From positions 124,001 to 188,000 of the forward strand of contig NZ_LVEG02000005.1 of assembly GCF_001614315.2 (NCBI RefSeq): DNA of 64,000 bases, given 5' to 3'. Shown in pieces: positions 20,272 through 41,193 of this stretch. Positions within the stretch are counted from its first letter, which is position 1. Each line of letters starts with the position of its first letter. Below the pieces are notes generated by a model. The model searched no databases and was not told the origin of the DNA. It worked only from the letters and a program-made list of their open reading frames with translations. Source of the DNA: Halofilum ochraceum (lineage in GTDB: Bacteria > Pseudomonadota > Gammaproteobacteria > XJ16 > Halofilaceae). The position numbers and the translations under genes were made by a program.

Positions 20272-20324
20272 CTCTGGACCACTACACTTAACGCCGACCC
20301 GGGGGCGTTGGTTTTACCGTCTTG

Positions 20325-22577: not shown

Positions 22578-22589
22578 CGACTTGGCAGC

Positions 22590-23933
22590 CTAAAGGCGGA
22601 AGGTCTGGAGTTCGTCGTCCGAACCGTCCTCCTGGCGCGGCTCAGTGGTCGCTTCGTCCTCGGCGTCACCAGCCGGCATCGCCTCGATCTCCTCCGCTTC
22701 GTCCGGCTGCACCTCGACTGTCCCGATGAGCTCGCGCCAGTCCTGATCGGGATTCTGCTCAAGCACGGACAACAGGTTCACGAACTCCTTGATGGAGTTT
22801 CGCGGTGTCGTGAAATACGCGGCCCCGATCCGCTGGTGGCAGTGGTCCATGAAGGCATGCAGGGCGTCATCCGGCACGAGATATTGGGATTCATCGCCGC
22901 CGGCCATGACATGGCGGATTTTGGTCAGGAGGATATAGAGGTCTTCCTGCGTGAGATTGCCGAGGCGGATGACCGGACCGCTGTAGTCCACAAGGCCGTC
23001 CCGGGCGAAACGGTTTTCGGCCAGTCGGGTCTGCAGGGCCTCGTAGCTGTAAAGTCCGCGTCGCGGATCCATCAGGAACTCCGGCGTGCCTCCCATGAGG
23101 AAGCCGAGGCCCTCGGCGTGCCCCTGCAGCGTGTCGTTGAGTATGCGCAGGATCTGCTCGTAGTTGCTCTTTCGGGCTTGGCTGCTGGACAGCTTGAACA
23201 GATTGACCATTTCGTCCATGCCGACGAGCAGGCCCTGATAGCCCGCCAGACGAACGAACCGGGCCATCAGCTTGAGATGGTCGTAGCAGTTGGCGTCGTC
23301 GATGATCGTGCGGACGCCGAGGGCCTTGCGGGCATCGGTCTTGGTCGAGAACTCCCCGCGCAGCCACCGGACCGCGTCCATCTTGAGCTGCTCGTTGCCG
23401 CTGTCGTGCCCTCGCCAGTAGGCCTCGATCACCAGGGCGAAGTCGTAACCGCCGGTCATTTCGGTCAGGTGACCGAGGCGGTCGTGTATGGCCGATACGG
23501 GCGACTCTCCACTCGAACGCGCCTGTTTCAGGCTCTCCGAGACGAAGCGCTCCGCGATACTGGCCAGCGCACCTCCCTCGGGCTTGGAGCGCGTGGAGAT
23601 GTTCCGCATCAATTCGGCATAGAGGGCTCGGGCCTGGCCTCCGGTCGCATGCAGGCGGCGGTCCGGCGTCAGGTCGGCGGAGGTCGCAACCAGCTTCTTC
23701 TCGAGCGCGATCGAATGGATCAGATTCAGGAAGAACGTCTTGCCGGACCCGTACTCGCCGATGATGAAGCGGATGCTCGACCCGCCATCGGCGATATTGT
23801 GGATGTCGCGAAGGAGCGCCTCGACCTCGTCGGCCCGGCCGACCTGGATGTGCTGCTGGCCGACCCTCGGTACGACACCGGCACGCAGGGAATCAAGAAT
23901 GGCTCGACGTTCCTTCTCGCGTATACGGCTCAT
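22590..23933 (-). CDS. sngB: Shango defence ATPase SngB (DUF2791/BrxD-like P-loop)
   Basis: AAA-like P-loop ATPase of 447 residues. Walker A is FIIGEYGSGKTFFLNLI at about residue 58, and Walker B is QGLLVGMDEMVNLF at about residue 235. LGFLMGGTPEFLMDPRRGLYSYEALQTRL and RLGNLTQEDLYILLTKI match the DUF2791 family, which also includes BrxD of BREX. The C-terminus is acidic and low-complexity. Its ATG overlaps the stop of the TerB-protein gene by 4 bp (ATGA). It probably works with the helicase on DNA of infecting phage. The mechanism of Shango is not settled, and BREX can be excluded by the missing pglX, pglZ and brxC. Confidence 0.82.
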   Translation of the reverse strand: MSRIREKERRAILDSLRAGVVPRVGQQHIQVGRADEVEALLRDIHNIADGGSSIRFIIGEYGSGKTFFLNLIHSIALEKKLVATSADLTPDRRLHATGGQARALYAELMRNISTRSKPEGGALASIAERFVSESLKQARSSGESPVSAIHDRLGHLTEMTGGYDFALVIEAYWRGHDSGNEQLKMDAVRWLRGEFSTKTDARKALGVRTIIDDANCYDHLKLMARFVRLAGYQGLLVGMDEMVNLFKLSSSQARKSNYEQILRILNDTLQGHAEGLGFLMGGTPEFLMDPRRGLYSYEALQTRLAENRFARDGLVDYSGPVIRLGNLTQEDLYILLTKIRHVMAGGDESQYLVPDDALHAFMDHCHQRIGAAYFTTPRNSIKEFVNLLSVLEQNPDQDWRELIGTVEVQPDEAEEIEAMPAGDAEDEATTEPRQEDGSDDELQTFRL

Positions 23934-26221
23934 TGGACCATCTCCTGGTAGATTTCACGATCGAGTGCGTAGAGGTCGCCGTCCTCCTCGATGCAGGGCG
24001 CATCGCAATGGTCGAATGCCGCCTCGTTGATGGTGTCCAGCGCCCCGTCCAGCATCAACCCATGGTGATGGGCGAGCTTCTCCAGCGCATCGCGTTCCCA
24101 ACTGTCGTGTTCGCCCAGTCGCCGCAGCAGCGCCGAGTGTTCCGTATCGAGGCCGTCGATGGTTGGCACCGAAGCGTCGTCTGCCTCCGCGGGTTCCCCG
24201 GATTCGTCCGAACCGTCTTCCTCTCCGAAAACCCCGTGGAGGAGGGTGGACACCTGCGTTGTCTCGGCCAGCTTGCGCTGGAGTGCATCCGGATCCAGAG
24301 CGGATCGTCCACCCTCCGGTGTCGGCTCCGCTGCGGCGGCGCGCCGCCCGGGCTGCTCGGGGATGCTGTAGCCCTGTTGTGGGGTGGCGGGTTTCACGGT
24401 CACTGGGCCCGCGCTCACGCCGTGCAGATCAGATACCACCCGCTCCGGATCGAGGCCCAACTGCTTGTAGAGCTTCTGCAGGATTTTGACCTCACCGGGA
24501 TCGACGTGTCCGTCCGCCGCGGCGATCGCGACAAGATACTCGCCGACGGTTCCGCGCTGCGACTCCGACAATTCCCCGATCTGCGCCTTGAGCCCGGCCA
24601 TGCCGCGATCGTGCCGGAGTTGCCACTCCTTGTGTGCGTGCAGGCGGCTCCGTTCGCCCGCCTCCAGCGACAGGCTCGTCTCGATATGATGCTCCAGGTG
24701 CTGTTCCTCGGCCGAAGAGACCTCTCCGTCAGCGACGGACACCATCGCCGCCAGTCGCATGACCAGTGCAGCGGCCTCGAAGGCCGGTGAGGGGGCGCTC
24801 GGTGCGTCGTGGTCCTGTCGAAACACTACCAACTGCTCGTCGGGGTCTGGCTTTAGGCCGCTGAACCGGACATCCGGTTCCATACCGTAGCCAGTCTTCT
24901 CGAGGAGCTGCGCGAGTAACACCGATTCCTTCTTGGAGAACCTGTCCGGCTTATCGACCGGGAAGTCCTCGATCAGCTCACCAACCGGAACGAAAGTCCA
25001 TTCGCGACCTTCTGCGTGGCGGTCGAGCGTCGCCCGAAGCGCTTTGAGGCCGGGATGATCCACCGACCCGGCAAGTTCCGTGGGCAGGAGCGCGACTGCG
25101 TGCAGGCTCTCGCGGCCGTTGCCGTCTTTACCCAGGAAGCGGCTGTAGGAATCGAGCTTGTCGGTGGCCTGCTCCGCGATATCGGTGAGCAGCGTGCGCG
25201 GACGCTTGAGAATCGTGATGTCGGGTAGGGCAGGCCCCTTGTAAAGATCCACTGCCCCGCGCATGCCTCCGGATGCCGGATGATATTGCGCCCGCACGGG
25301 TGTCTTGTTTGGTTTGACGACAATTCCCTCGCCGTGGCGCTCCCGGTAAAGGGACTCGAACAGCGCCCGGAATTCGGATGGACAGCGCCTCGCCGGCGTG
25401 CGCAGACGGATCTCCGGGTGATGAATTACCCACGCCAACGCCCATTCTGCCGGGATCGGCTTGCCCGCCTTGCTGAATTGTCCCAGTCCGACTTTCAGCG
25501 ATGCCGGGATCTCATGTCCCGAAGTTGCGGAAACGGGCGGGGCGTTGGTGAGGTCGCGGTCGCCCCCGCCCAATTCGATCGCAGCCAGGAACTCCTCGGC
25601 GTAACGGGCAAAGGACCGATTGTCGCCATAAAGCTGCAACAGGCGCTCGACTTCAGCACGGATCGCGAGACGTTCTTCGGGATCATCGGCCCCGCTTCGG
25701 TGATCGTGCAGCAGCCGCCTTTCCAACCCGTAGAAGTACAGAAAGACGTAGCCAATGTACGCCCGCGGGTCCTTGCGGCCCTTAGCCAGCCATTCCAGAT
25801 AGGCGGCGCGGCAGCGCGGTCCGATGTCCGCGTAGGCGGGCCAGTAGTCCATGCCGGCTCCGTCCCGAGCGGGGCGGGCGCGATCCACCTTCAGATTGGG
25901 GTCGATCAGGGCGGGCTCGGTTCGGTAGCCATCGACGGAGGCCAGATCACGACCGACGTACAACAGGCCACCGTCGAGCGAATAGTCTTGCACGGTCGTC
26001 GCGCGGCCAGCGGGAAGCCAGAACTGGCGGAAGTTTCGGCTGAGCTTCCTTCTCGTATTCCTGCGCCCAATGCTGTCGCCGCTCGAGGAAACCTGAACAC
26101 GAACGCCGTTGTCGCGCGTCGGCCGTCGCGACTCGCGCGGCGAGTTGATGGATTTCTTGTCCGAACCGCTCAACCAGATCAGACCTCCGGCGACCAGGGC
26201 GATGATGACCAGGTATTCCAA
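23930..26221 (-). CDS. sngA: Shango defence TerB-domain protein SngA, TTG start
   Basis: Protein of about 763 residues. It starts with a single transmembrane segment (LEYLVIIALVAGGLIWLSG) and a basic linker. A TerB-N region follows (DYWPAYADIGPRCRAAYLEWLAKGRKDPRAYIGYVFLYFYGLERRLL), then a TerB-like helical domain with acidic metal-binding character (AAMVSVADGEVSSAEEQHLEHHI, later AAADGHVDPGEVKILQKLY). The C-terminus is TerB-C-like (LDREIYQEMVQ). TerB modules sit at the membrane in stress and phage-defence complexes. The frame is open to ATG 26374, but those residues look non-coding. TTG 26221 has AGGA 7 bp upstream and places the membrane segment at the N-terminus. It is the first gene of the operon. 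Confidence 0.82.
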   Translation of the reverse strand: MEYLVIIALVAGGLIWLSGSDKKSINSPRESRRPTRDNGVRVQVSSSGDSIGRRNTRRKLSRNFRQFWLPAGRATTVQDYSLDGGLLYVGRDLASVDGYRTEPALIDPNLKVDRARPARDGAGMDYWPAYADIGPRCRAAYLEWLAKGRKDPRAYIGYVFLYFYGLERRLLHDHRSGADDPEERLAIRAEVERLLQLYGDNRSFARYAEEFLAAIELGGGDRDLTNAPPVSATSGHEIPASLKVGLGQFSKAGKPIPAEWALAWVIHHPEIRLRTPARRCPSEFRALFESLYRERHGEGIVVKPNKTPVRAQYHPASGGMRGAVDLYKGPALPDITILKRPRTLLTDIAEQATDKLDSYSRFLGKDGNGRESLHAVALLPTELAGSVDHPGLKALRATLDRHAEGREWTFVPVGELIEDFPVDKPDRFSKKESVLLAQLLEKTGYGMEPDVRFSGLKPDPDEQLVVFRQDHDAPSAPSPAFEAAALVMRLAAMVSVADGEVSSAEEQHLEHHIETSLSLEAGERSRLHAHKEWQLRHDRGMAGLKAQIGELSESQRGTVGEYLVAIAAADGHVDPGEVKILQKLYKQLGLDPERVVSDLHGVSAGPVTVKPATPQQGYSIPEQPGRRAAAAEPTPEGGRSALDPDALQRKLAETTQVSTLLHGVFGEEDGSDESGEPAEADDASVPTIDGLDTEHSALLRRLGEHDSWERDALEKLAHHHGLMLDGALDTINEAAFDHCDAPCIEEDGDLYALDREIYQEMVQ

Positions 26222-26530
26222 TAAAGCGTCCTCGCGGTTTTCGTTATTTACATGCCCTGAGGCGGGTCCGGATGCGTCGGCGTGCCGTGGCCGGGAGGCG
26301 CCCACCTTGCCGGATCGACTGCGCGCTAAGCCTAGCATCACCGGGTCGACCGCTGACACGGGTCCCGGAGCCACCGGTGGTTTCTTTGCAGCGGCGGGCC
26401 GGTTGTCCTACGTTCGATTCGGCGGGGGACTTCTGGGCGCTGGCGACACGGCTGCCCCGCCGGCCGATCGGCGCCGAAGAGCAGTGAACTTGCCAGTGGA
26501 GGGAACAGCTGGCGGCTCCGGGAGTGACGC

Positions 26531-27161: not shown

Positions 27162-28673
27162 CTAGGCCGGGCGCCCGATCCCCGGGAAGGGGACGGTCGT
27201 CGTCAGAAATTGCCGGAATCGCTTGTGCAGTTCGAGGAACGCCTCGTACGGGAGGCCGTCGCGCTCGATCTCGAAATCGAAGGCCGTGATCACGCCCGCA
27301 TTCGGCCCGCAATGGTGCCGGTGGAAGGTGCGACACCGGGAGCCGGTGCGTGGTCCCGTGGGCACCGTACACATGTCGAGCGGGTGCTCACCCTCGTAGT
27401 AGAACGTGAGGCGCTCTCCCGAAACGGCGCTCGCGTACCAGTGGTCGGGCGGAACCGCCTGCGCCCGCGCGCGACGAAATGCGCCGGCGTCATGGTTCTC
27501 CCGGTAGTGCCGCAGCTGTTCACACCACTCGTTCAGGAACCGGTAGAGCACGACGAACTGGCTCTCGAGCTGTCTGCGGATCAGCCACGCGCGGAAACCA
27601 CTGCCCGGATAGCTCACGCGACCGTCTTCGTGGCGGACTGCGGGCCACCAGATCGGTGCGGGCTCCGGTCCCTGTGCCTGTTCGTAGAAGGGGTAGGCCT
27701 CGAGCTGGCGCGCGAAAAAAGGAGCGTAATGCCGCGCCGCGGCACGGAAAAACCACAGACTCAGCGCCATGCATTGGGGGCAGGGATCCGGTCCGTCGAG
27801 CAAGTGCTCCGGGCGCAGGTGGCGGTAGCTGGTGACGTGCGGACGGTGGCGGGGCGCGCGCCGCGAGAGCCAGGCGACGATCGCCCGCGTCACGGCATAG
27901 TCGGCCGTGAGCACCGAACGCGGTGGGGCGGAGGGGCCGGCGTTGCGGCTGGCCCTCGGCATCACCGAGGCCAACGTCGGATCCGTTTCCGAGAGTCGGG
28001 TGGTGCGGTGGGCAAGGGGCAGGCGGCGGATATGCAGGGCATCGAGCTCGTCTGCGCGGAACGCCCGGCAACGATGCGCCTGAAAGGCCCCATAGAGCGG
28101 TGAGTCGAGGCTGATCTCCCGCCAGGCGGGATCGATCAGCGGTGGTGGGAGACGCCCTGGCAGGCCGAGCAGATCGTGCGTCTCGCCGGTCTCGCGCATG
28201 AACCGGTGGATCTCACCAATGGGACTGCAGTCCAGGTCCGCGATCACATCTGGAAGGCGCTCGAACGGTACGCACCCGCAATGGGGGCAGTCGCGTGCTG
28301 CGAGCTTTTCCCAGGGCGGCCACGGTCGGGCACAGACCGGACAGCATTCGGTGAACGCGCAGTGATGGATCGGGCAACGCTCGAGCCAGGGCAGGGCATA
28401 GACATCCGAGTGGTAGAGCGCGGCGGCGCATGCGGGACACTGCCGCGGGCTGCGCCCGCGCGCCGGCGATGCGCCGTCGCCGTCATTCGCCGCCTGCAGT
28501 GCCGCGACCCGCTCGAACAGCGAGCCGCGGTCGGGCACAACGCGGCGCAACGTCACTTCGATGGCTGATAGCGGGATACCCGGGTTGGCACTGAGGCAGC
28601 GGCGCAGCATCGAATAGCGGCTCTCGTAGGGGCGCTCAAAGAGCCGGCCGAGATTGACGAGGAAGGGCTCCAT
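27162..28673 (-). CDS. tniQ: TniQ/TnsD-family target-selection protein
   Basis: TniQ-family protein of 503 residues. The start PFLVNLGRLFERPYESRYSMLRRCLSANP resembles TniQ N-termini. It is followed by a double zinc-ribbon region: CPACAAALYHSDVYALPWLERCPIHH, then CPVCARPWPPWE and DCPHCG. The Cys/His set and the ALPWLERCPIHH phrase (usually W...CPxHxxxL) are diagnostic. The ~300-residue C-terminal half is unlike Tn5053 TniQ in length and probably reads the target DNA, as in TnsD. ATG 28673 shares one base with the stop of tniB (TGATG). There is only one TniQ-family gene, so this should be the sole target selector. Confidence 0.82.
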   Translation of the reverse strand: MEPFLVNLGRLFERPYESRYSMLRRCLSANPGIPLSAIEVTLRRVVPDRGSLFERVAALQAANDGDGASPARGRSPRQCPACAAALYHSDVYALPWLERCPIHHCAFTECCPVCARPWPPWEKLAARDCPHCGCVPFERLPDVIADLDCSPIGEIHRFMRETGETHDLLGLPGRLPPPLIDPAWREISLDSPLYGAFQAHRCRAFRADELDALHIRRLPLAHRTTRLSETDPTLASVMPRASRNAGPSAPPRSVLTADYAVTRAIVAWLSRRAPRHRPHVTSYRHLRPEHLLDGPDPCPQCMALSLWFFRAAARHYAPFFARQLEAYPFYEQAQGPEPAPIWWPAVRHEDGRVSYPGSGFRAWLIRRQLESQFVVLYRFLNEWCEQLRHYRENHDAGAFRRARAQAVPPDHWYASAVSGERLTFYYEGEHPLDMCTVPTGPRTGSRCRTFHRHHCGPNAGVITAFDFEIERDGLPYEAFLELHKRFRQFLTTTVPFPGIGRPA

Positions 28674-29617
28674 CAGGCGGGGCGAACCAGTGCGGGCACG
28701 AGCCCCGAGATGCGCACGCACTCGTGCACCATCTCGTCGTCGAAGGCCTCCACGCCGAGATCGGCGAGGAAGTCGGTCAGCAGGGTGTTCACCGTCGCGA
28801 CGAAGTACTGCATCCCCCAGGAGTCGATCGCGTAGGCGGTCTGGTACTCGCGAAAAACCCGCCACAGATCGCCGGCGAGCGAAGCCAGGCGCCATCCCTG
28901 CTGTTCGGCCTCGGGCAGGAAATAGCCGGTGTAGGTGGGACCGTCGGCGGGGTAGCGCAGGCGATCGTACTGAGAGAGACAGAAGTGCACCTGCTCCCGG
29001 GAAGTCAGGCCGGGGAAGGTCGTGCGCTGGGCGAAGAAGCGCCCATGGATATGCGCGTAGCGCGGTTGCTCACACGCCTCGAGCAACTCGCTCGACTCCT
29101 GATCGTTACCGACAAAAAAGTGGGTCAGTGCCATGTCGAGCAGCCGCAGCCGGTCGTGGAGCTCGGCGAACGGGCCGAACTGCAGGGGCGTCAGGCGCTG
29201 CATCTCGTCGACGATCAGCACCGCATAGCGGCTGTCGCTCTCCACGGCCCGGTCGGCGATGTAGTGCAGGAACCGGTCGGCGAGGTGGTCTGCCCGGTCG
29301 TGGTTGGCCGAGCGCAGCCCGACGCTCCAGCACAGCTGGCGAAAGACCGTCATGACCGTGTGCTGGTCGCGAAGGGGCATCGAGACGTAGTAGACCGGGA
29401 TCGGCGTGTTATCCCGCGCGCGCAGTTGCGAGGCGAGGGTGCGCACCGCGGTCGTCTTGCCCACGCGCGCGGCGCCCAGGATCAGCCCGCCGGTGGCCCC
29501 GGTCCACAGCCAGCGATGCAGCTCGTCGCGCAGGCCCTGGATGGCCGGCGTCTCCAGGTGCAGGCGGTCGTGCTGGAAGACCGGATGGTCGTAGAAATCG
29601 CGGGCGCTGCGGTCCAT
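28673..29617 (-). CDS. tniB: TniB/TnsC-type AAA+ transposition regulator
   Basis: AAA+ ATPase of 314 residues. Walker A is LILGAARVGKTTAVRTLASQL (about residue 47) and Walker B is YAVLIVDEMQRLTP (about residue 145), followed by the sensor-1 segment THFFVGNDQESSELLEA. The N-terminus (DFYDHPVFQHDRLHLETPAIQGLRDELHRWL) is of TnsC/TniB type. Such proteins form filaments on target DNA and connect the target selector with the transposase. ATG 29617 lies 2 bp after the tnsB stop codon. The frame stays open far upstream (to 30619), but that part is antisense-like shadow of tnsB. Confidence 0.87.
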   Translation of the reverse strand: MDRSARDFYDHPVFQHDRLHLETPAIQGLRDELHRWLWTGATGGLILGAARVGKTTAVRTLASQLRARDNTPIPVYYVSMPLRDQHTVMTVFRQLCWSVGLRSANHDRADHLADRFLHYIADRAVESDSRYAVLIVDEMQRLTPLQFGPFAELHDRLRLLDMALTHFFVGNDQESSELLEACEQPRYAHIHGRFFAQRTTFPGLTSREQVHFCLSQYDRLRYPADGPTYTGYFLPEAEQQGWRLASLAGDLWRVFREYQTAYAIDSWGMQYFVATVNTLLTDFLADLGVEAFDDEMVHECVRISGLVPALVRPA

Positions 29618-29619
29618 GG

Positions 29620-31488
29620 TCAGCCCCGGTGCGCGGCGCGCGTCGGATGCCAGACATGGCGCCGCGCGGGCTCGGTGGCCGTGGGTTCGCCGCCCTCGAG
29701 CACCAGCCCGGAACTGCGCCCGCCGGTGAACTCGGTGTAGACGCGCAGCAGGGACAACGCGTTGGTCGGCTCCGCGCGGTGCTCGAGCAGGTATCGAAAG
29801 TAGGCGGCCAGCGGGTCGCGCGCGCCGAGGCGATGGCGCGCGGCGTTCTTGTGGATCCACTGGCGGGTCGCCAGCGTATGCGCGAAACGCTGCCACGGCG
29901 TGGAGACCTGCAGCTCGCCGAGATCGGCGCCGGCGAGCGTGTAGGCGTGCAGCGTGCGGATGTCGCGCCGATCGAACTCCACCCGCACACGCGTTTCCTG
30001 CCCGGCGACGTGGACCAGTCCCGCACCATGGTAGCGCGCGTAGGCGAAGTTGATATGCGGGCGGCGATGCTCTTCGCGGTACCAGTGCAGGCGCACGACG
30101 GTACTCGACAGCAGGGGATGCCACTGGCGGGCGAGGAGGGCGGGCACGAAGCGCACGAAGTGCGCCCGGCAGTGGTGGCGGAAGACTTCCAGTGGCGCGG
30201 CGTCGCCGAGCGCGGCCTGCGGTGTCACGTTGTGCTCGGTCAGCAACACCGCGAGCGCCTCGTCGAGCGCCTGGAAGGTCATCACCGGCGGCTGCTTGCG
30301 GTTCGCGCGCGACTCCCGCTCGCGGTCGGTGGGATGCGAACCGGTGGTGGCGGCGGGGCGGTGCGTGCCCGCCTGTGCGAGGTAGTCGAACACCGCTTCC
30401 ACGCGCTGGCGCACGGTCGGCACGCCCGGCGGTCCGAAGCTCAGCGTCGCGCCGAACCGCCCGCACAGGAGGTCGACGATCGAGTGCGCCTGGTGCATGA
30501 GCGCGTTGTCGAGCTGCACGGTGCCGAAGCTGATCGGGAAGGCCTCGTCGGACGCGGCCGGGAAGCAGGCGCCCGGCGCATAGCGAAGCCCCGGGGTGGT
30601 CAATGACGGCGGCCGCCACGGGCGGACGCAGCGGTCGATCAGCGTCAACAGATCCTGCTGATTCGGCTGGCGCGTGGGCGCGAGGTGGTAGCCGAGCACG
30701 CAGCGCGTATCGACGTCGATGGTCACGAGCACGCTGGCGCGCGCGATGCGCAGCGGAATCAGCTCATCGTTGAGCAGCAGGTGCACGCGGTTGCCGAGAT
30801 CGAGGATGTGCTCGTCGATCTGCACGGCGCGCAGCGCGCGGTGCCCTGGATCGCCCGGCATCGGGCGGGGCGTGGCGCGGCGTCGGCGCTGCAGGCGCGC
30901 CTGTTCGAGCTCGGCGGCGCGTCGCTGCGCGTAGCGGCGCACGGACTGGTAGGCCACCGAGGCAGTGGTGTAGGGGTAGCGATCGCGCGGCCAGTGGAGC
31001 TCGGCCAGCAGGCGCTTGAATTCGCCATGCACGGCGTGGGGCGTAAGCCTCTGGGCGAAGGCGGCATCGCGGTGGCGGGCCTCGATCAGGCCATCGAGAC
31101 CCTCGCGCACCGCCGGCGCGGCCTCCAGCAGGGCGCGGAAGGCACAGGAATCCCCGCCCGCGCGGGCATGCGTCGGCAACGCCCGTCGACGGCGGCGTTG
31201 GTTGACGTTGGCGTGGGGCACGAGCCCCAGGGTGAGTGCGGGCGCTTCGCCGTCCTCGCCTGCCAGGCAGCGATCGAGGATCTGGCCGACGCGGGCCGGG
31301 CTCAGCGAATGCGCGCGGGCCGCGGCCTTCAGCGCCTCGCCCGCCAGCACGCAGGCGACGACCTGCTGGTTGCGCATGAACCCCCGCTGCTGGCGACTCG
31401 AGAGCGCCTCGACCGGGATCGCCGGCCACTCGGCGAGATCCCGCAGCCGCGGCTGCTGCTCGAGGCGAGCGCGCCAGCTCAGGTGCAT
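29620..31488 (-). CDS. tnsB: TnsB/TniA-type DDE transposase
   Basis: Retroviral-integrase-like transposase of 622 residues. The N-terminal third is helical and DNA-binding (EALSSRQQRGFMRNQQVVACVLAGEALKAAARAHSLSPARVGQILDRCLAG). The catalytic core has its first Asp in AVQIDEHILDLGNR, the following strand VLVTIDVDTRCVLGYHLA, the second Asp in VQLDNALMHQ, and the Glu in RVEAVFDYLAQAG. A C-terminal SH3-like barrel (YARYHGAGLVHVAGQETRVRVEFDRRDIRTLHAY) follows. It should bind the ~20-bp end repeats and cut the 3' ends. Start 31488 overlaps the tnsA end by 10 bp. No disruption is seen. Confidence 0.87.
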   Translation of the reverse strand: MHLSWRARLEQQPRLRDLAEWPAIPVEALSSRQQRGFMRNQQVVACVLAGEALKAAARAHSLSPARVGQILDRCLAGEDGEAPALTLGLVPHANVNQRRRRRALPTHARAGGDSCAFRALLEAAPAVREGLDGLIEARHRDAAFAQRLTPHAVHGEFKRLLAELHWPRDRYPYTTASVAYQSVRRYAQRRAAELEQARLQRRRRATPRPMPGDPGHRALRAVQIDEHILDLGNRVHLLLNDELIPLRIARASVLVTIDVDTRCVLGYHLAPTRQPNQQDLLTLIDRCVRPWRPPSLTTPGLRYAPGACFPAASDEAFPISFGTVQLDNALMHQAHSIVDLLCGRFGATLSFGPPGVPTVRQRVEAVFDYLAQAGTHRPAATTGSHPTDRERESRANRKQPPVMTFQALDEALAVLLTEHNVTPQAALGDAAPLEVFRHHCRAHFVRFVPALLARQWHPLLSSTVVRLHWYREEHRRPHINFAYARYHGAGLVHVAGQETRVRVEFDRRDIRTLHAYTLAGADLGELQVSTPWQRFAHTLATRQWIHKNAARHRLGARDPLAAYFRYLLEHRAEPTNALSLLRVYTEFTGGRSSGLVLEGGEPTATEPARRHVWHPTRAAHRG

Positions 31489-32162
31489 GGCCCGATCTCC
31501 GTGTCGAAGTCGAGCCTCCGCTCGGTAAGGCTTGCGCGCAGGTGCCCGCGGTGGACCAGGCGCAACAGCGCGATCTCGTGTGTGTAGGTGCGCTCGCGAT
31601 CGCCCGCATCGACCAGGTCGCCGAGTGTGCACGGGCCCCGGTTGGCCAGGCGCTCGAGCACGGCATACTCGGCCTCGGCCGTCTCCAGCGTCCGTGACTG
31701 GTGCAGGACGCGCACGATCTCCGCCCAGTTCTCGGCCTCCGTCTCGCGCTCGAACACCGACTCGTTGCTGATGACCTCGAACTGCAGGCCGCGCGCGGCG
31801 AAGAAGTGCGCCAGCGGTTCACGCAGTTCCTCGCGCAGCACGCCGCGCGGCTTGATCTCCACGACGCGCCGCGGTCCCGCGTCGCTCACCACGTAGCAGT
31901 CGGGGGTGTAGAGCTGGCGGCGCACGCGCAGGCGAAAGGGCTGCGGCACGTAACCGCTCACGGCGGGGGCGCCCTCGAGCAGCGCGGCGTGCAGGTGCTC
32001 GGCCCGGCTGTGGAACTCCGAGAGGTGGGGGTGCTTGAGCATCCACTGCAGGCGCAAGTCGGCGGCCGTGCGCAGGCGCCGCGCCGAGCGCTGCTGCTGG
32101 GGCGCGAGCGTCTCCGCCGTCACCGTGCGGGCGAGGGCGGGGTCGAAGTCGGGCGTCGCCAT
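31479..32162 (-). CDS. tnsA: TnsA-type endonuclease
   Basis: A 227-residue protein with the TnsA N-terminal nuclease fold: LKHPHLSEFHSRAEHLHAALLEG provides the early Glu region, and QLYTPDCYVVSDAGPRRVVEIKPRG gives the PD and ExK residues of the PD-(D/E)xK active site. A helical C-terminal part (AEYAVLERLANRGPCTLGDLVDAGDRERTYTHEIALLRLVHRGHL) resembles the winged TnsA C-domain. TnsA cuts the 5' ends so that Tn7-type elements move by cut-and-paste rather than cointegrate. Its presence separates this element from Tn5053. The chosen ATG 32162 drops a non-conserved 33-residue extension. Confidence 0.82.
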   Translation of the reverse strand: MATPDFDPALARTVTAETLAPQQQRSARRLRTAADLRLQWMLKHPHLSEFHSRAEHLHAALLEGAPAVSGYVPQPFRLRVRRQLYTPDCYVVSDAGPRRVVEIKPRGVLREELREPLAHFFAARGLQFEVISNESVFERETEAENWAEIVRVLHQSRTLETAEAEYAVLERLANRGPCTLGDLVDAGDRERTYTHEIALLRLVHRGHLRASLTERRLDFDTEIGPCT

Positions 32163-32358
32163 CGGCCGTCCCCGTAGCGGGGGTCGCGCTTCTGAGTATA
32201 GTCCGCGGGCGCGATCGGGCCAGGGTCGAGGTCTGCACCAGAAACGCATACAACGGTGCACCGCGCGCGGCGCCCGTTTTTCGGCTATCGTGGGGGCATC
32301 ACGGCGCCCGCGTGGCGGTGGAAACGGTGCGTAAGCTGCACCGGAAATCGGAGGGGAA

Positions 32359-33096
32359 ATGGTGCAGATTCAGACGGGCGGAGGGCGGTTTCCGCGCCGC
32401 CGCGGCCAGCGCCTCTTCCAGGCGCGCGCCGAGCCTGCCGCGACGTTCCCGATCGAGACCGTGCGCATCGACTGGGAGCGCCTGGTCGCCAAGCGCCCAG
32501 TCGTGCTCGAGACCATCGACGCGATGCCGGCCTATCTGCTCAAACCCGAGGTGCTTGGGCTCCTGGACGCCGAGAAGCACCCCACCTACCGCCTGATCAT
32601 GGATCTGATGTGGGTCACGGGCGCCCGGGTGTCCGAGGTGCTCGCATTGACGCCGGCGAGCTTCATCGACGACGGCTATGACTTCGGCGTGGTGCTCAAG
32701 ACGCTCAAGACCCGCCCGGGGCGACCGAGCAAGGCATCATTACAGCGCTCGCCCAAGCGCTACGTGCCGATCGCCGACACGCTCCTCGCCGACCGGGTGC
32801 AGAGCTACCTCTACGCCGGGCGTTTTCGAAAAGACGAGCGGATCTTCCCGATGGCGCGCCAGACCGTGAACCGCCACATCGCCGCCGCGGTGGAAGCCGT
32901 CGGCGGCGGGGCGCCGTTCTCGATCAGCGCCCACACCTTCCGCCACTCCTTCGCCGTGCACCTGCTGCTGCACGGCCGCCCGCTCAAGTACGTCAGCCAG
33001 CTGCTGGGGCACGCCTCGGTGGAGAGCACGGAGGTCTACACCAACGTGCTCACGATCGACGGGGGGCATTTCCTGGAAGGGGTGGAGTTTCATTGA
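32359..33096 (+). CDS. Tyrosine recombinase of the transposon
   Basis: Short tyrosine recombinase of 245 residues. The catalytic Arg is in MWVTGARVSEVLAL, HxxR is in ISAHTFRHSFAVHLLLHG, the second His is in VSQLLGHASVES, and the nucleophile is the Tyr of TEVYTNVLTID. The N-terminal arm-binding part is only ~90 residues. GGAGGGG lies just before the ATG. It diverges from tnsA across 196 bp, a place where a recombinase could regulate or resolve the element. Possible jobs are resolution of cointegrates or capture of cargo. Sequence alone does not decide. Confidence 0.87.
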   Translation: MVQIQTGGGRFPRRRGQRLFQARAEPAATFPIETVRIDWERLVAKRPVVLETIDAMPAYLLKPEVLGLLDAEKHPTYRLIMDLMWVTGARVSEVLALTPASFIDDGYDFGVVLKTLKTRPGRPSKASLQRSPKRYVPIADTLLADRVQSYLYAGRFRKDERIFPMARQTVNRHIAAAVEAVGGGAPFSISAHTFRHSFAVHLLLHGRPLKYVSQLLGHASVESTEVYTNVLTIDGGHFLEGVEFH

Positions 33097-33163: not shown

Positions 33164-36100
33164 ATGTTTGACGGATACGACGGAACAATGGACGAGCTCC
33201 CGCCACTGAATACAGGCAATCCGCCGGCATTCCACACGCTCGACGACGAACTGTTCGAGGAATTCTGTTGTGCTCTGCTCGACAATGAGCCGGGTATAAA
33301 AACAGCCGACCGGCATGCGACTCCAAGGAAGCCTCAGTACGGCGCCGATCTCATCGGCAATCGAGATGACGCCCGGCTGGAGATCATCTCCTGTAAGTGC
33401 TACAGCAAAGCGAAGAAGGGCGACATTCCGACGGCATGCGATGAGTTCCTGCGCTGGTGGGAAGCGCACTGGAAACATAAAGGCGTCACGCGATTTATCT
33501 TGGCCATCGCCGCCGACGTCCGCGCGACACCGCGGCGTCAGGAAATCGAACAACAGAGAGCCCGCTTCGAATCGCTAGACGTGGAATTTGAGGTATGGGG
33601 CCCGCGCACGCTCCAGGAGAAGATGCGCCGGCATCCGGGAATAGTCGCTCAGTATCTTGGGCCTGAGTATGTCAAGCGCTACTGCGGTCGACAGCAACCG
33701 CAGATCAGCGATAGCCCGATCGAGTCCGCTCTGCTGCAACAGCTGGCTCAGATGCAATCTGCACTTGCAGAGGAGGTGGATTCCGCGCTTGATGACGTCT
33801 CCGTCGAACTTAGGCACGGACGGGACGAGCGCGCTGACCGGGAACTGGACCGCCTCAGAAGCGACCCGCAGCGATGGGCCGCACTGTCCGTGGAATCCCG
33901 GGCGAGGGTAACTCGCCTTCGGGCACTGCGGGAATTGCGTTCCGGCACACCGGAACGTGCAACCGATCTGGCCGACGAGGCGGACGCGCTGGATGATGGA
34001 AAGGAAGGGGCGCGCTTGCGAGCCTCGCTGGCGGCCGAATCCGGTGATCTGGAAGGCGCTCTCGATCTGCTGGCTACCAGCACTGCGCCGGAGGATCTTC
34101 GGCTTCGTGCGAGTGTCTGGCTGGCACTCGAAAAACCCAAGCAGGCACTCGAGGAACTGGCCGGCCTTGCGGGTGCCGAGGAGTTCGCCTTGCAGGCCCA
34201 TGCATTCGCCGTCCTCGGCCGGGGAGAAGAGGCCCGATCGTGCCTCTACGAGGGCGAGAAAATCGAGCCGAGTCTGCTCAACGTCCGGCGCGCCGGAATT
34301 GCAGTCCGCTACTGGCAAGCAATGTCGCCGGAGATGCCCTACCGCCTGGACGCTGGGCTGCACCCCGTCCCGCTCGGGCTGGTCCGTGCCGACGCGGAAA
34401 CACAACAACTACTTGAACGTGCGTGCGGTCTCGCCCGGACAACACTCGAAGATCCGGCGCTCGCCCCCAACTGGACGGAAGAATTTGAAACATGGCAATT
34501 GGCGTGTCTCGCCAACCAGCGCGACAAGACGGACGAGGCAGAAGCGTATGCCCGTGCGCTGCTGAAACATCCGCGCCCACACTGCGGGGCTCTTGTATGG
34601 TCGATGGCTCGCGGCTACGCGATCGATCACCGGCGCGAAATCCGGCGCCTGGAACACATGCTCGGCGGCGGACCCGCCGAAGTCATTCATTTGACGGTCA
34701 TGCTTGCTTTGGCCCTGGACCAGGGCAAGCCCCAGCGTGCAGAACGCGCGCTCTCCGATCATGCGGCACGCTTTCCCGGTCATGAGCAGTTGCTCGACCA
34801 GTGGCGGGTGATTGTTGCGGCCGAACTGCGCAACGAACATTCAGGCTCGTTGCCGCCCGTGCTCGCAGTCCAGCGGGCCGCCGAGGACGCAGACTGGAAC
34901 GAAGTCGTTCGACAGATCGCGGACAGGCTCACGGAGTCCGATCTCACGTCCGCGTACATAGGATGTGAAGCCCTTGCGGCGAACGGCCAGTGGGCGCATA
35001 TCGAACAATTTATACCAGCGCTCCTTGATCGGATCCAGACACCGGACGCGATCACGATGGCCTGTTTCGCGGCATACCACATGGACCAGCCGGAACGCGC
35101 ACGGGATATCTCCGACCGCTATCGTGCGCATTTCGCAGACGCGAAGCTCCCTCTGTCGATTCGAAGAATTCGTCTTCACGGACTGCAGCAGTCCGGTAAG
35201 TTGCCCGAGGCCTACGAAGAGGCCGACGGGCTTGTTTCCGAAGGGAACCTCACTGACATTATCACGGCGGTCAACACGCGGCTCATCGCGGGCGATATCG
35301 GTGGAGCCGTTCCTCTGATTCGAAAGGTGGCCGGAGACTCAAACCTACCGCCGCAGACCGCACTCGAATACGCACGTGTGGTGCGTCATGTCGATCCGGA
35401 TGTGGCCCGTGATCTTTGGAATCGAGTTCCGAAGGGGGAAATTCAAGGCCAGCTCGCGGAACTCGCCGTCGCCACTGCGTTCGAGCTCGGTCTCGACGAT
35501 CAGGCTGGTCCCGTGATCAAAGCGCTCGCCCGCAACGCCGAAGACCCAAATTCGACCACGAAGACGATGACAATCGAGGACCTTCCCGGCTTCCTCGAAC
35601 AGCAAAGGCGACACACCGAACACGTGGAACGTGAGTACCGACACGGTCGAATCCCACTGCACATCGCCTCTGATACATTGCACGTTCCGATGGCCGACTG
35701 GTTCAGCGAGGCATTTTCGGGGAGTCAGCAGTTTCCCTTGTACCTATTGCATGGAAATAGGGCGCTTGCGCGTCCAGGTGTCTCGACATCCACTTGCCGC
35801 CTGCGCCTTGACCTGACAGGCCTGTTAACTGCATTCCATCTCGAGCTTCTCGATGTACTCGAAAGGCGGTGGCATCCGATTGAGCTGCCGTTCTCTTTGC
35901 CTCAGACGCTGAACGGAATGGAACGACAGCTGCGCCAGATTCAGCCCGTCGAATTGCGAGCAAACGAGTTGCTCATATCGAACGTCGAAGCACAAAGAAT
36001 CGGCGAGGTTGATGTTGAAAGCACTCGCGCAGGAAATGAGACTGAATACGCGGCATGCCAGGTCACGGTCGTCGAATACACCGACAACCTGGCTGGGCCA

Positions 36101-39100
36101 ACCTCAGCGAACCCGCGACGCATACTGGACGTATTGGCCGACTTGCGGGTGGAATCGCCAGACCTGCTTGAGACTGCCGCATCCAATTTGGGCGTTATCG
36201 GGTCAGAAGAGCCGCTCGGTCCATATCCGAAACCCGGACAGGAGCTCGCGTTCTCGGGCAACACTATTTTGTTGTTCGCCCGCGAAGGACTCCTGCGGGC
36301 GCTGACAACGACATTCGCCGTTAACGTGGACAGTCGCTATCTGCAGATGGCGCGCGCGGAAGTCGCCGAACATCGCCGAAAGATGGGCGTTGCTGATCAT
36401 CTCCAAATGCTCAGTGACAGGATAGCAAAAGGGATACAGAGCGGCGCATACCAGGTCCTGGGTTATCGGGATGCCGAGAGAACGGACGACGAAGAGGGAG
36501 ACCGACAAGGCCCCGTAGGCGCGACCGCTCGCTGTCTCGTCGAAGCGATCAGTAGCCCGTGCCACCAGAGGACCGTCTTGTGGGTAGATGACCGCAATAT
36601 AAACGGCTTCCGAGGCGCGGAAGCGCTCGACATCGCCTGCGTATGCGACATCTTGTCTTACCTGCGTGACGAGAATGAGATCACTGAGGGTGACTATTTC
36701 GCGCACTTGCTTCAGCTGCGTGAAGCCGGTGTACGCAATATTCCCGTCTCCTCCGAGGAAGTACTGTATTACCTGCGAGCTGCGCCCTGCCACGGCGGCC
36801 GCATTCAGGAAACCCGCGGATTGCAGGCCCTGAGACGCTGCCTCGCAGAGACCGCTCTGTCAGAAACGGTGCTCGAACTCGACCCTTCCCAGAGTGCTGG
36901 CGGCGATCGGGCTGACGAGCTTCCACTGCTTCAGATGCTTTGGCGCGTGCCTCGCGAGACGCTCGTGCGACTCTGGAACGACGATAGCGCCCACGGGAAC
37001 GATACAACGGTAGCGTACGCAAACTGGATATACGAGACGCTGATCATTGACCACTTCTCGCGTCTGCCGCTGGGGGATGAGCCGCAAATACGCCGGCGAC
37101 TCGCGGTGACGGGGCTGGCCGGATTCATTGTCGACGGACTCCAGATTACTCAGCATTCCGAAAACGATGGTCTCCGTGCCGCATATTTCGACTGGCTGGA
37201 TGAGACAATACTCGCTCCGCATTTCCGGATCGAGCGCGCTATCATCACGGATGTCGCCGAGATGGTGGGTGACATCCTCGATGGACTCCTACGCGACGCC
37301 GAAAGCAGCGGATCGACCGGAGACCCTTTGCGACAGGACCAGGTCGCGGTGATCCTCGCAGACTACGTCCGGGCCCTTCCGGAACGCGTCCGCGATGCTC
37401 TCAGTGATCGGTCCGAGCTGATGCAGCGCCTTCCTCTACGCATAGGCCCGACCGTCGAAATCGGAGACGAAACGTTCGACGCAATCGCCTTCTTTGACGG
37501 CGTAGCTGTGGCTATGCGGGACGGACAAGCTCACATTCGTTCAGCCGAAGACCAGATTCTGTGTCTTGAGTGGAACCCCGAAAAGCCTGGGCGTATCAGC
37601 GGAAACGGCCGATCGTATTGGAATCTGGACGATCCTGGTCTGGAAGTGCTCGCAGACGACGTCGAGCGTCGACGTCGGGCGCTTCACGATCATCCTTCCT
37701 GGATCGACCGTGCGGCCGTTGATCGGATTTCAGCGATTGAGACAATCGCCGGCCTTGAAGAACCTCACGCGCGTATGCTTCGGCTTGATGACGAGCGCCG
37801 TGCGAGCGCCGAGTTCCAGTATCGTTGTATCGAACAGTCGGTCGCACGTCGGGAATCCATTGGTCCGGATCAGCTCAGTGTGATCTCGACTAATATGGTG
37901 CTGCGACATCTGCGCGTCGACCCAGATGCTGAAGGGTACAGTGTCGACGATGCCGCCGCTCAACTTCTAGACGAACTCGCGCCTGAGGATGCCATCCGCC
38001 GAATGGTGGGGCTGCCCATTGACCTGCCGCGGCCAATGGCGGAGGCATTGTGGCAGCTAGCGCCGTCGGTCCGGCACTCCTTGATCCACGAACTAGGCGC
38101 TCGTTCGGCATCACCCGTGCGCCAGATGCGCGCAGTCGAGTGGGCTCGGTCGTTCCCTGACTGTGAAGTAAGTGTCGAGCCGCTCATCGGTCATCTTTTC
38201 GAAGACCTCGAGCCGCGAACCAGGCTCCTGCACCAAAATGCCCTGTGGGTCGAGCGGTCATTTGAGGCCGATGGCTCCTGGCGTGATCTACCTCAGGATG
38301 TCCGCTTGCTTACCGTCTGGTGCCACGCCGAGCGTCTGACCAACCTATTGCTCCAGGCCGGCGTGAGCCCGGACTCGACAGCATCGATCGCCGCTCAGTG
38401 GACACCACGGGCCTTCGGTTCGTGGTTCAGCAGAGACCCGCTGGACGAGCACGCCCCCTGTAGCCCGCATGCCGTTCTCGACAAGTCGCTCGCCTGGACA
38501 TTGGTCGGAACGGCGGTCGGTGACGCGGCGAACGATCTGCTTTCTGCCGAGCACCGCACCGCCCTCACAGAATCGATCAGTCATGTGACGGAGACCGGCT
38601 CACGCTGGCCAGACCCAGCGGTCATGGCTACTCCATCCCGTTCGAGTTGTCTCGACTGTATTATAGGGCGGGATCATCCGGCGCTGCGAGAGTCGCTCAA
38701 CGATGCAGCCTTAGCCGAAAGGCTGGGTCCAGCTTTTCGTGAGGGTCTCGTGGGCGAAGCGCTTTCTGAGCTGGAGACCACCCCCTCCGACAGTCACGCA
38801 TGGACGAAAATCCTGATTTGCCGACATGGGGAGTTGAAGACAGGTGAGATCGAGCGAATAGTACCAATACTCGAGAGGCTCGACATTAAGCAGCTAAGCG
38901 CGAACAACACCGACACGGCATTGGCGGTGATCGTATACCTCTGCCGATCTCCAACACTGATGGGATACGAATCTGCTCGGGCGAAAGCCGAAACGTTCTT
39001 GTTGAATTTGTCCTCCGAGTACAGCGGCCAAACAGCAGACAGTCATTTCTCACGGACCACAATCTCCGCGGATGATATATTGATTACGCTCAGCGATGCT

Positions 39101-39322
39101 TTACTCCACATCGTACGCAATTCGCGCAGCGCGAATTATCCCCAGCAATTAGCGACTCTCGTGGGTCGGATTGTGGAAACCTCGGCGGACGCTAAGCGAC
39201 TGTGGCAATACTCCTTACCAACCATCGCCCGACAACTTCCGATCAACGCGGCTAAAGAGTTGTGGCCTTTGATACTGCGCTTACGCGCTGACTGCGACAG
39301 CTACCGCGCGAATAGTATTTAA
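33164..39322 (+). CDS. Giant 2052-residue protein: Mrr-like nuclease domain, helical repeats, possible PIN domain
   Basis: I do not recognise the whole protein. Residues ~20-165 look like an Mrr/restriction-endonuclease fold: LFEEFCCALLDN, then KPQYGADLIGNRDDARLEIISCKCYSKAKKGDI, where Asp of GADLIG and Lys of SCKCY sit at PD-(D/E)xK positions, with Ser replacing the usual Gln/Glu. Residues ~190-850 are Ala/Leu-rich helical, TPR-like repeats. Around 880 LRLDLTGLLTAFHLELLDVLERR, and around 1142 VLWVDDRNINGF, resemble the acidic strands of a PIN nuclease. The last ~850 residues are unassigned. There is no Walker A motif, signal peptide or membrane segment. Start may instead be ATG 33188. Codon use looks less GC-rich than in core genes. 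It is transposon cargo; a defence role is inferred. Confidence 0.7.
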   Translation: MFDGYDGTMDELPPLNTGNPPAFHTLDDELFEEFCCALLDNEPGIKTADRHATPRKPQYGADLIGNRDDARLEIISCKCYSKAKKGDIPTACDEFLRWWEAHWKHKGVTRFILAIAADVRATPRRQEIEQQRARFESLDVEFEVWGPRTLQEKMRRHPGIVAQYLGPEYVKRYCGRQQPQISDSPIESALLQQLAQMQSALAEEVDSALDDVSVELRHGRDERADRELDRLRSDPQRWAALSVESRARVTRLRALRELRSGTPERATDLADEADALDDGKEGARLRASLAAESGDLEGALDLLATSTAPEDLRLRASVWLALEKPKQALEELAGLAGAEEFALQAHAFAVLGRGEEARSCLYEGEKIEPSLLNVRRAGIAVRYWQAMSPEMPYRLDAGLHPVPLGLVRADAETQQLLERACGLARTTLEDPALAPNWTEEFETWQLACLANQRDKTDEAEAYARALLKHPRPHCGALVWSMARGYAIDHRREIRRLEHMLGGGPAEVIHLTVMLALALDQGKPQRAERALSDHAARFPGHEQLLDQWRVIVAAELRNEHSGSLPPVLAVQRAAEDADWNEVVRQIADRLTESDLTSAYIGCEALAANGQWAHIEQFIPALLDRIQTPDAITMACFAAYHMDQPERARDISDRYRAHFADAKLPLSIRRIRLHGLQQSGKLPEAYEEADGLVSEGNLTDIITAVNTRLIAGDIGGAVPLIRKVAGDSNLPPQTALEYARVVRHVDPDVARDLWNRVPKGEIQGQLAELAVATAFELGLDDQAGPVIKALARNAEDPNSTTKTMTIEDLPGFLEQQRRHTEHVEREYRHGRIPLHIASDTLHVPMADWFSEAFSGSQQFPLYLLHGNRALARPGVSTSTCRLRLDLTGLLTAFHLELLDVLERRWHPIELPFSLPQTLNGMERQLRQIQPVELRANELLISNVEAQRIGEVDVESTRAGNETEYAACQVTVVEYTDNLAGPTSANPRRILDVLADLRVESPDLLETAASNLGVIGSEEPLGPYPKPGQELAFSGNTILLFAREGLLRALTTTFAVNVDSRYLQMARAEVAEHRRKMGVADHLQMLSDRIAKGIQSGAYQVLGYRDAERTDDEEGDRQGPVGATARCLVEAISSPCHQRTVLWVDDRNINGFRGAEALDIACVCDILSYLRDENEITEGDYFAHLLQLREAGVRNIPVSSEEVLYYLRAAPCHGGRIQETRGLQALRRCLAETALSETVLELDPSQSAGGDRADELPLLQMLWRVPRETLVRLWNDDSAHGNDTTVAYANWIYETLIIDHFSRLPLGDEPQIRRRLAVTGLAGFIVDGLQITQHSENDGLRAAYFDWLDETILAPHFRIERAIITDVAEMVGDILDGLLRDAESSGSTGDPLRQDQVAVILADYVRALPERVRDALSDRSELMQRLPLRIGPTVEIGDETFDAIAFFDGVAVAMRDGQAHIRSAEDQILCLEWNPEKPGRISGNGRSYWNLDDPGLEVLADDVERRRRALHDHPSWIDRAAVDRISAIETIAGLEEPHARMLRLDDERRASAEFQYRCIEQSVARRESIGPDQLSVISTNMVLRHLRVDPDAEGYSVDDAAAQLLDELAPEDAIRRMVGLPIDLPRPMAEALWQLAPSVRHSLIHELGARSASPVRQMRAVEWARSFPDCEVSVEPLIGHLFEDLEPRTRLLHQNALWVERSFEADGSWRDLPQDVRLLTVWCHAERLTNLLLQAGVSPDSTASIAAQWTPRAFGSWFSRDPLDEHAPCSPHAVLDKSLAWTLVGTAVGDAANDLLSAEHRTALTESISHVTETGSRWPDPAVMATPSRSSCLDCIIGRDHPALRESLNDAALAERLGPAFREGLVGEALSELETTPSDSHAWTKILICRHGELKTGEIERIVPILERLDIKQLSANNTDTALAVIVYLCRSPTLMGYESARAKAETFLLNLSSEYSGQTADSHFSRTTISADDILITLSDALLHIVRNSRSANYPQQLATLVGRIVETSADAKRLWQYSLPTIARQLPINAAKELWPLILRLRADCDSYRANSI

Positions 39323-39607: not shown

Positions 39608-40084
39608 CTAATCGCCTGTATCGACTCGGTCTCGTGCCGAAGATTCCGTTGTCCGAGAGGGCCGCACGCCCCATGCCGCTTGGGCCGTTGCCTCGATGCG
39701 GGCCATGAATCGGTCCACGTTGAGTCCAGCGATGAACGCCAAGGCGAGGAATCCCAGGGGATTGCCATCAGGGTCGTGAGAGGCGTCGAGAGCCAGCAAG
39801 CCTGCCTTGAGAAATAGGAAACTGACGCCGCCAAAGATGATACTGACGAACGGACGGATAAAGTACCAAGGGAGCCAGTCCGCGTCCCATCGCTTGTGCA
39901 CGCACGCGTTGAGGTAGATGGCACGGAGGCAGTACGCCGCGCCGCCCAAGCCTCCAAGTGCTGCGCACATTGCAGGCAACAGCCAAACATCAACCCAGAC
40001 GCCCGGGGCTAGGGTATAAAGGCTCGCAAGGGCTCCAATCACCACAATGCTGAAGGTGATTTCAAAGGCGGCGACGGCATACAT
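39608..40084 (-). CDS. Small multi-spanning membrane protein paired with an MBL-fold gene
   Basis: A 158-residue protein with about four hydrophobic segments (residues ~5-25, ~32-50, ~75-95 and ~105-122) and a polar C-terminal tail (about 30 residues). The family is not recognised. It starts 8 bp after the stop of the metallo-beta-lactamase gene, with GGGAAGA upstream, so the two are one operon. Small membrane proteins tied to an enzyme in mobile defence cargo are often killing effectors. That is inference here. The ORF is open to 40183, but that extra N-terminus overlaps the upstream gene. Confidence 0.65.
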   Translation of the reverse strand: MYAVAAFEITFSIVVIGALASLYTLAPGVWVDVWLLPAMCAALGGLGGAAYCLRAIYLNACVHKRWDADWLPWYFIRPFVSIIFGGVSFLFLKAGLLALDASHDPDGNPLGFLALAFIAGLNVDRFMARIEATAQAAWGVRPSRTTESSARDRVDTGD

Positions 40085-40092
40085 TGGTGCGC

Positions 40093-41193
40093 TCAATCTT
40101 CCCAAGGCTCGACGGTTTCGAAGAATTCGTACGGTATCGCCTGACTGAAGTCGGCGCGCAGGGGCATATTTCGATGATGCCACTTCGTGTTTCCCCGGGT
40201 GGCGTAGACCGTGGCCCCACGCCGGATAAACCCGTTGACGACCATGCGTCGAGGGTGGGTCTCGGTCTTGCTAGCGACCGAGGCAAAGGCCGTTACCGAC
40301 TCAGTCCCGCCGCGCTCAGTATCGGTTTCACCGAGTAGTCGATCTAGGATCGACGGCGCAACGTTGTGTCGCCCACCGTGATGGGGGACCTGCACGAAAC
40401 GCGGCGGCAGCGGATACAACGATGGGTTGTCCTCGATGTACGAGAGCGCCTCATCCAACGTTTCGATGCCTGCGTCTGCGGTAAGTAGCGCGATACGGTC
40501 GGTGAAAACAGCAGCCTGTACGAGACTGCTCTCGTTTGAGGCGGTCGTCTTGACGTGCTCCCGCAGCGATTCCACGCCGAAAGTCTCCAGGATCCAGTCG
40601 CGCACGCTGCCCGCGGCGTGGGCTAAGTCGCGTAGGGTAAAGCGGTCGGCATGGTCCTCGGATTCTTCCGGCGTGCGGGCGAAACCGGGCACAAGGTGCA
40701 TATAGCGGGCGCGGCTGGGCGCGAGCACCGTGAAGGCGCCGATCTGGTCACCTTGGAAGACGGTGCGTATCGGGATTCCGCGCCGCTCGGCGGTCTCCTC
40801 AATCTCGACGACCATTGGATACGCATCACGCAGATGGCGGGCGAGACTGGCAGCCGTAAGTCGGTCATCCTCAAAATGGTCGACTAGCTCCTCGGCGAAG
40901 AGCCATGGCCGATTCAACCAAACAGTACCTATGGTATTGCGCTCGAGGACAGTGCGTAGCCCCGACACGTGATCGTCGTCGAGATGGCTGCATACCAAGT
41001 GGTCTACGTGGGTAGTACCGTAGTAGTGAGACAGGTGCCAGCATAGCGCTTCACCGGAGTCCCGGTTGCCGCCATCGATCACGTGCACCCACTGCCGTCC
41101 CGCCTGATAATAGCGAACAGCGATTGCGTCACCACTGCGCTCTCCATCACCTACGGGAAGAAAATCGATTTCGTAAGGGAGGTCGGACATCAC
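40093..41193 (-). CDS. ComEC/Rec2-like metallo-beta-lactamase-fold protein
   Basis: Soluble MBL-fold protein of 366 residues. The metal motif HLVCSHLDDDHVSGL (HxDxDH), the first strand pair (VHVIDGGNRDSGEAL) and the late QVPHHGGRHNV segment match the ComEC/Rec2-like branch, whose known members act on nucleic acid or phosphodiesters. The ending TKWHHRNMPL contains a further His pair. It is the first gene of a two-gene operon with a four-helix membrane protein. Two ATGs (41193 and 41190) are possible. It is cargo of the Tn7-like element, with long gene-poor stretches upstream and downstream of the pair. Confidence 0.8.
   Translation of the reverse strand: MMSDLPYEIDFLPVGDGERSGDAIAVRYYQAGRQWVHVIDGGNRDSGEALCWHLSHYYGTTHVDHLVCSHLDDDHVSGLRTVLERNTIGTVWLNRPWLFAEELVDHFEDDRLTAASLARHLRDAYPMVVEIEETAERRGIPIRTVFQGDQIGAFTVLAPSRARYMHLVPGFARTPEESEDHADRFTLRDLAHAAGSVRDWILETFGVESLREHVKTTASNESSLVQAAVFTDRIALLTADAGIETLDEALSYIEDNPSLYPLPPRFVQVPHHGGRHNVAPSILDRLLGETDTERGGTESVTAFASVASKTETHPRRMVVNGFIRRGATVYATRGNTKWHHRNMPLRADFSQAIPYEFFETVEPWED

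Follow-up and report, generated by a model that had tools for sequence, protein, structure and literature searches.

A 2052-residue Mrr-like, TPR and double-PIN protein from a mobile defence island of Halofilum ochraceum: a likely variant form of the TPR-GreA/B-C-PIN conflict system known from prediction

The analysed DNA is a 64,000-nucleotide stretch of Halofilum ochraceum contig NZ_LVEG02000005.1 (positions 124,001 to 188,000, hereafter the window), and positions 33164–39322 of its plus strand hold a single ORF of 2052 amino acids with an ATG start and without an internal stop codon. The features of this gene and its surroundings are as follows, with residue numbers referring to the encoded protein.

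20325–26374, minus strand: Shango system genes SngC, SngB and SngA (E-values 7e-271, 2e-183 and 6e-96)
28673–32261, minus strand: Tn7-like genes for a TnsC-like ATPase, TnsB-like transposase and TnsA-like endonuclease
32359–33096, plus strand: tyrosine recombinase (PF00589, E-value 1.4e-19), 67 bp upstream of the large gene
33164–39322, plus strand: the whole gene, 2052 aa, with Mrr-like effector, TPR, HTH, PINa, PINb, permuted GreAB-C-like domain and alpha-solenoid
33230–33703, plus strand: Mrr-like PD-(D/E)xK-type effector domain, residues 23–180 (alignment and Mrr_cat matches)
33761–35563, plus strand: TPR-type helical repeats, residues ca. 200–800 (alignment with homologue L019)
35573–35782, plus strand: HTH, PF24407 HTH_upst_double_PIN, residues 804–873 (Pfam; 804–849 directly matched)
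35795–36211, plus strand: PINa, residues 878–1016, keeping the invariant first-strand D883, C-terminal half without a conserved acid
36239–36781, plus strand: PINb, residues 1026–1206, first-strand Asp lost, keeping W1140-V-D1142-D1143-R1144, R1186 and E1199
37451–37633, plus strand: beta-beta-alpha-beta-beta-beta-beta domain at the Permuted_GreAB-C (PF24388) position, residues 1430–1490 (AF2 model)
37637–39319, plus strand: alpha-solenoid (HEAT/ARM-like), residues 1492–2052 (model; no specific family)
39608–40183, minus strand: 191-aa protein of no family, overlapping the following gene
40093–41193, minus strand: PDC-M48B-type MBL-fold protein (metallo-hydrolase; E-value 1.1e-108), also LmuA-like (E-value 2e-21)

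At the GC content and base composition of the gene, 2052 codons without a stop would arise by chance with a probability of about 10^-29, and homologues of ca. 1950–2200 aa were aligned with the window protein across both ends at ca. 20–28% identity. The ORF is therefore a real gene, intact and, as the initial annotation had described it, single and large; a chance ORF was ruled out by the former figure and a pseudogene by the full-length alignment. Homologues were located on cyanobacterial, rhizobial and Azospirillum plasmids and in other Pseudomonadota genomes, and partial relatives on Nitrospirota and Chloroflexi contigs. Close relatives are rare, and genome contigs scanned with the window protein as the sole query returned zero matches. 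The HTH family, used as a marker, was found in 5 of the 369 genomes of the class and in 0 of 14 controls, and the distribution of the family is very patchy. Two scans of viral contigs gave zero relatives, and phage genomes zero matches, which leaves the gene with no sign of phage-gene origin. PDB sequence searches returned nothing meaningful, and no promoter-like site was detected.

Two family members deviate in gene structure. In genome G732 the protein (L035, 6943–12686) is encoded as two overlapping frames of 1273 and 651 aa, the break falling after the PIN module and before the Gre-like/solenoid part; this is either a two-gene form that occurs naturally or the result of a frameshift. The copy of Rhizobium beringeri (L017, 7938–14192) is broken into several frames and is an apparent pseudogene.

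The gene is flanked by the Tn7-like cluster and tyrosine recombinase on one side and by the PDC-M48B pair (39608–41193), a candidate two-gene defence pair, on the other. The complete Shango system lies upstream and ends 7 kb from the gene, in agreement with the defence context initially proposed. GC content is ca. 0.58–0.60 across 35–41 kb versus 0.61–0.72 in most of the remaining window. From its gene content, the setting can be assigned to a mobile defence island. The region 27162–33096 comprises the TnsA/B/C-like genes together with a 577-aa protein without family match, adjoining the tyrosine recombinase, and this pairing of Tn7-like genes with a tyrosine recombinase is unusual. The sequence GACAGAAAACGCTNNACCTC occurs twice, at 20141 and 20255 (20141–20274), 114 bp apart, when 0.02 occurrences are expected by chance, and the copies are possible transposase-binding repeats at one end of an element. 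No far end matching the GACAGAAAACGCTNNACCTC repeats was found, for which reason no limits are assigned to a transposon. An empty site was likewise not recovered when two congeneric genomes were compared.

Defence genes were found beside some homologues, namely pPIWI-RE/DinG (L025), a PLD-helicase (L027) and a HEC-05-like gene (L038). In L053 (243–13088) the homologue comes immediately after HmaB- and HmaC-like genes, is oriented as they are, and may act together with the Hma system. ThiF/multiubiquitin genes adjoin L013, and around L009, L010 and L014 no defence gene was present apart from toxin-antitoxin genes. As the flanking genes for the PADLOC scan were chosen by eye, these neighbours provide supporting context, not enrichment against a control set.

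The N-terminal domain supports the Mrr-like assignment made initially, with eight of the nine family members matching the Mrr_cat profile (best E-value 5.9e-6); the window protein itself gave E-values of 0.045 at full length and 0.0018 as a separate domain. The PD-(D/E)xK-type residues placed near positions 61 and 78 correspond to D62 and K78, which together with Q58 and G60 are invariant in the nine-member alignment, D62 and K78 also in NACHT-linked copies. The window domain carries the variant motif D62...S76-C77-K78, and the residue two places ahead of the Lys, which is Ser here as well as in rhizobial and Azospirillum members, is Gln in cyanobacterial and NACHT copies. Catalytic competence is not assured, because Ser76 replaces the usual Glu or Gln in the middle position of the motif, and the putative nuclease could be weak or inactive. 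On this ground the Mrr domain might be regarded as a non-catalytic DNA-binding or docking module, leaving the PIN RNase as the main effector in the manner of toxin-like PIN defence proteins, and the PIN residues do belong to the best-conserved positions in the protein. However, D62 and K78 are invariant and clear enzymes occupy the same slot in other members, and we regard this alternative as a whole as quite improbable.

The same Mrr-like domain was also found on plasmid-borne NACHT, TPR and HEAT-repeat proteins, one of the NACHT carriers matching the Avs2 N-terminus and another, of Pantoea, matching the window Mrr domain with a BLASTP E-value of 2e-16. The domain is a plug-in effector serving several scaffolds. 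Conversely, the conserved core is combined with varied N-termini: besides Mrr, a caspase (L013, PF00656, E-value 1.9e-9), a nucleoside phosphorylase (L019, PNP_UDP_1, E-value 1.4e-14), a Death-like bDLD3 domain (L020, E-value 4.6e-26, next to a gene encoding a phosphorylase-bDLD3 fusion), and an HNH domain resembling the HNH of CBASS effectors (L036) were identified. Still other N-termini are carried by L011, L027 and L029, that of L011 being present on a NACHT protein as well. In the core tree, L011 and L023, both of Azospirillum, are sisters despite their different N-termini, the caspase member L013 falls inside the cyanobacterial Mrr clade, and the Mrr state must have changed three times or more to fit the strongly supported branches; the deep joins of the tree are uncertain, since it was built by a quick method and its branches are long. 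Comparison of the sequences thus indicates that the core has been conserved while the N-terminal effector has been exchanged, even between sister proteins.

Within this core, residues ca. 200–800 were aligned throughout across the homologues. The helical repeats noted at first reading were borne out by TPR_2 in homologue L019 (E-value 3.8e-7), aligned with the window protein, whose own TPR match was weak and insignificant. The HTH segment matched PF24407 with an E-value of 1.3e-6 in the window protein, above the curated cut-off, and of up to 1.3e-20 in homologue L013. A Walker A motif is absent from the window protein and the profile search returned no NTPase family, consistent with the initial statement that it has no ATPase motif.

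The acidic pattern of PIN type, described initially as split between residues 883 and 1142, was upheld by the alignment: D883 is Asp in all 23 homologues having a letter at that column, position 1142 is Asp or Glu in 24 of 24, and D1143, R1144, R1186 and E1199 are each present in 24 of 24. The two PIN copies, which are similar in profile comparison (E-value 6e-6), each lack one catalytic acid; PINb lacks the first-strand Asp except in L035–L037, and PINa has no conserved third-motif acid. Relatives L019–L021 have a single PIN, the N-terminal half of which resembles PINa (mean z 13.0) but not PINb (0.5), and the C-terminal half of which resembles PINb (mean z 19.8) but not PINa (0.5). Most simply, the N-terminal half of PINa and the C-terminal half of PINb would together make up a single catalytic PIN. 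By residue conservation, the putative catalytic set (D883 and D1142/D1143) is kept across the family but spread over two PIN copies.

PF20698 was matched by relatives L036 (2.5e-10) and L013 (6.4e-6) around D883 and the WxDDR columns, the window protein itself matching neither PF20698 nor PF24388. The AlphaFold model of residues 800–1340 (8-row alignment, mean pLDDT 75.9, pTM 0.74) displayed two consecutive units with the strand-helix order expected for a PIN domain, but Foldseek searches of the PDB with the double-PIN model returned no PIN structure (best E-value 0.2), only generic helical and solenoid matches. Owing to the negative Foldseek result and the lack of a PF20698 match in the window protein, the PIN assignment rests on the sequence of relatives.

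The division of the catalytic acids bears on an alternative in which the protein senses as Avs and NLR-like proteins do: the TPR and solenoid arms would bind a conserved phage protein, Mrr would be the sole effector, and the PIN and Gre-like domains would be idle structural parts. The Mrr domain is indeed common to NACHT (Avs2-like) proteins, N-terminal effectors are swapped as in Avs, and each PIN copy alone is without one catalytic acid. In conflict with this alternative, the invariance of D883, D1142/D1143, R1144, R1186 and E1199 at 20–30% identity is unexpected for an idle domain, and the window protein has no NTPase; we consider Avs-like sensing rather unlikely.

The C-terminal ca. 850 residues, initially said to match nothing known, are unmatched only in part. 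A model of residues 1290–2052 (pLDDT 75.5) contains a small beta/alpha domain at 1430–1490, and the PF24388 matches of L036 (7.2e-9), L009 and L019, one above the curated cut-off and two weak, all fall within window residues 1433–1479. The Gre-like assignment rests on these relatives, and the predicted secondary structure is compatible with it. The solenoid was assigned to no specific family, and Foldseek searches of the PDB with the C-terminal model gave only generic helical and solenoid matches; Gre was not identified by this search.

Taken together, the explanation favoured, with some reserve, is an anti-invader protein that stands alone and has no NTPase, a variant of the TPR-GreA/B-C-PIN system in rearranged form, with a double PIN, a permuted Gre domain and a solenoid tail. 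In the proposed course of events, the TPR/solenoid core and Gre-like domain would dock on RNA polymerase or on the transcription product of the invader, docking would assemble or expose the split PIN site for cutting of RNA, and the engaged core would release the N-terminal Mrr domain to cut DNA, whereby phage replication would be stopped or the cell killed. These parts differ in standing: a defence function is probable, the prospects of the Mrr and PIN modules both being catalytic are about evenly balanced, and action through RNA polymerase, taken over from the published prediction, is tentative and somewhat doubtful. The original picture of a repeat scaffold flanked by two nuclease folds oversimplifies the layout: the Mrr domain is an exchangeable effector, and the PIN is duplicated, split and situated in mid-core.

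A more far-reaching version, which we think unlikely, is that PINa and PINb form a composite RNase site completed only upon sensing of an invader, assembly itself being the alarm switch, with the independently exchanged DNA-cutting or killing domain as a second effector; if true, the composite site would make the protein an NTPase-free two-tier immune receptor within one polypeptide. Several homologues are plasmid-borne, some adjoining partition genes, and these locations, with the HTH and Gre-like domains, could also fit a regulator of transcription or of plasmid or transposon maintenance carried on mobile elements, outside defence. Such a role is hardly credible against the exchange of toxic effector domains, the Shango, pPIWI-RE and Hma neighbours and the very patchy distribution. 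Were the proposed anti-invader role true, the family would represent a bacterial immune receptor without an NTPase switch that accepts many plug-in effectors, and surveillance of transcription may be coupled to the cutting of both RNA and DNA.

The suggestion of a new single-gene defence system was not sustained, because the HTH is already in Pfam as PF24407 and the general design goes back to Kaur et al. 2021 (PMC8195603, Fig. 2K). Their predicted stand-alone TPR-GreA/B-C-PIN conflict system (PF20698) joins a variable effector to a constant TPR, GreA/B-C and PIN region and would act on RNA polymerase that a virus has commandeered. PF24407 and PF24388 (Permuted_GreAB-C) both match the present family at corresponding positions; they are domain models, for which the literature searched yielded no paper or functional test, nor did it yield an experimental study of the TPR-GreA/B-C-PIN system or of the present family. 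The parent system dates from 2021 as a computational prediction, and the invariant residues now supply mutants for direct testing.

Avs2 and other NACHT proteins with an Mrr-like N-terminus have a homologous effector domain in common with the window protein, but differ in their NACHT/STAND NTPase, absent here, and in their unrelated cores. DS-3 (DefensePredictor, PMC13092281) is a single PIN protein whose catalytic residues are required for phage defence, and like the window protein it is a single polypeptide whose PIN is discontinuous along the chain; the split of DS-3 lies between its N- and C-terminus, and the two are likened by description.

The closest correspondence is with the TPR-GreA/B-C-PIN system, of which the present family is very likely a variant. 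Both have a stand-alone gene, a variable N-terminal effector and TPR, and putatively a Gre C-domain and PIN, which in the present family are assigned through relatives; the effectors listed for the system include REase, HNH and PNPase, and its third PIN motif is DD as here. The canonical proteins L066 and L067 have Mrr-like N-termini too (E-value 2e-7 with the window), and the BLAST match between the cores is weak. The canonical members examined are of 1103–1469 aa with PIN near the C-terminus, in the order TPR, GreA_GreB, PIN where GreA_GreB was detected (L063, L066), whereas the present proteins are of ca. 2000 aa in the order TPR, HTH, PIN, PIN, permuted Gre, solenoid. Because PIN precedes the Gre-like domain, in departure from the order of Kaur et al. 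2021 (TPR, Gre, PIN), the family is filed as a variant and not as a plain member, distinguished by its invariant DDR motif, split PIN, added HTH, usually doubled PIN, and solenoid tail.
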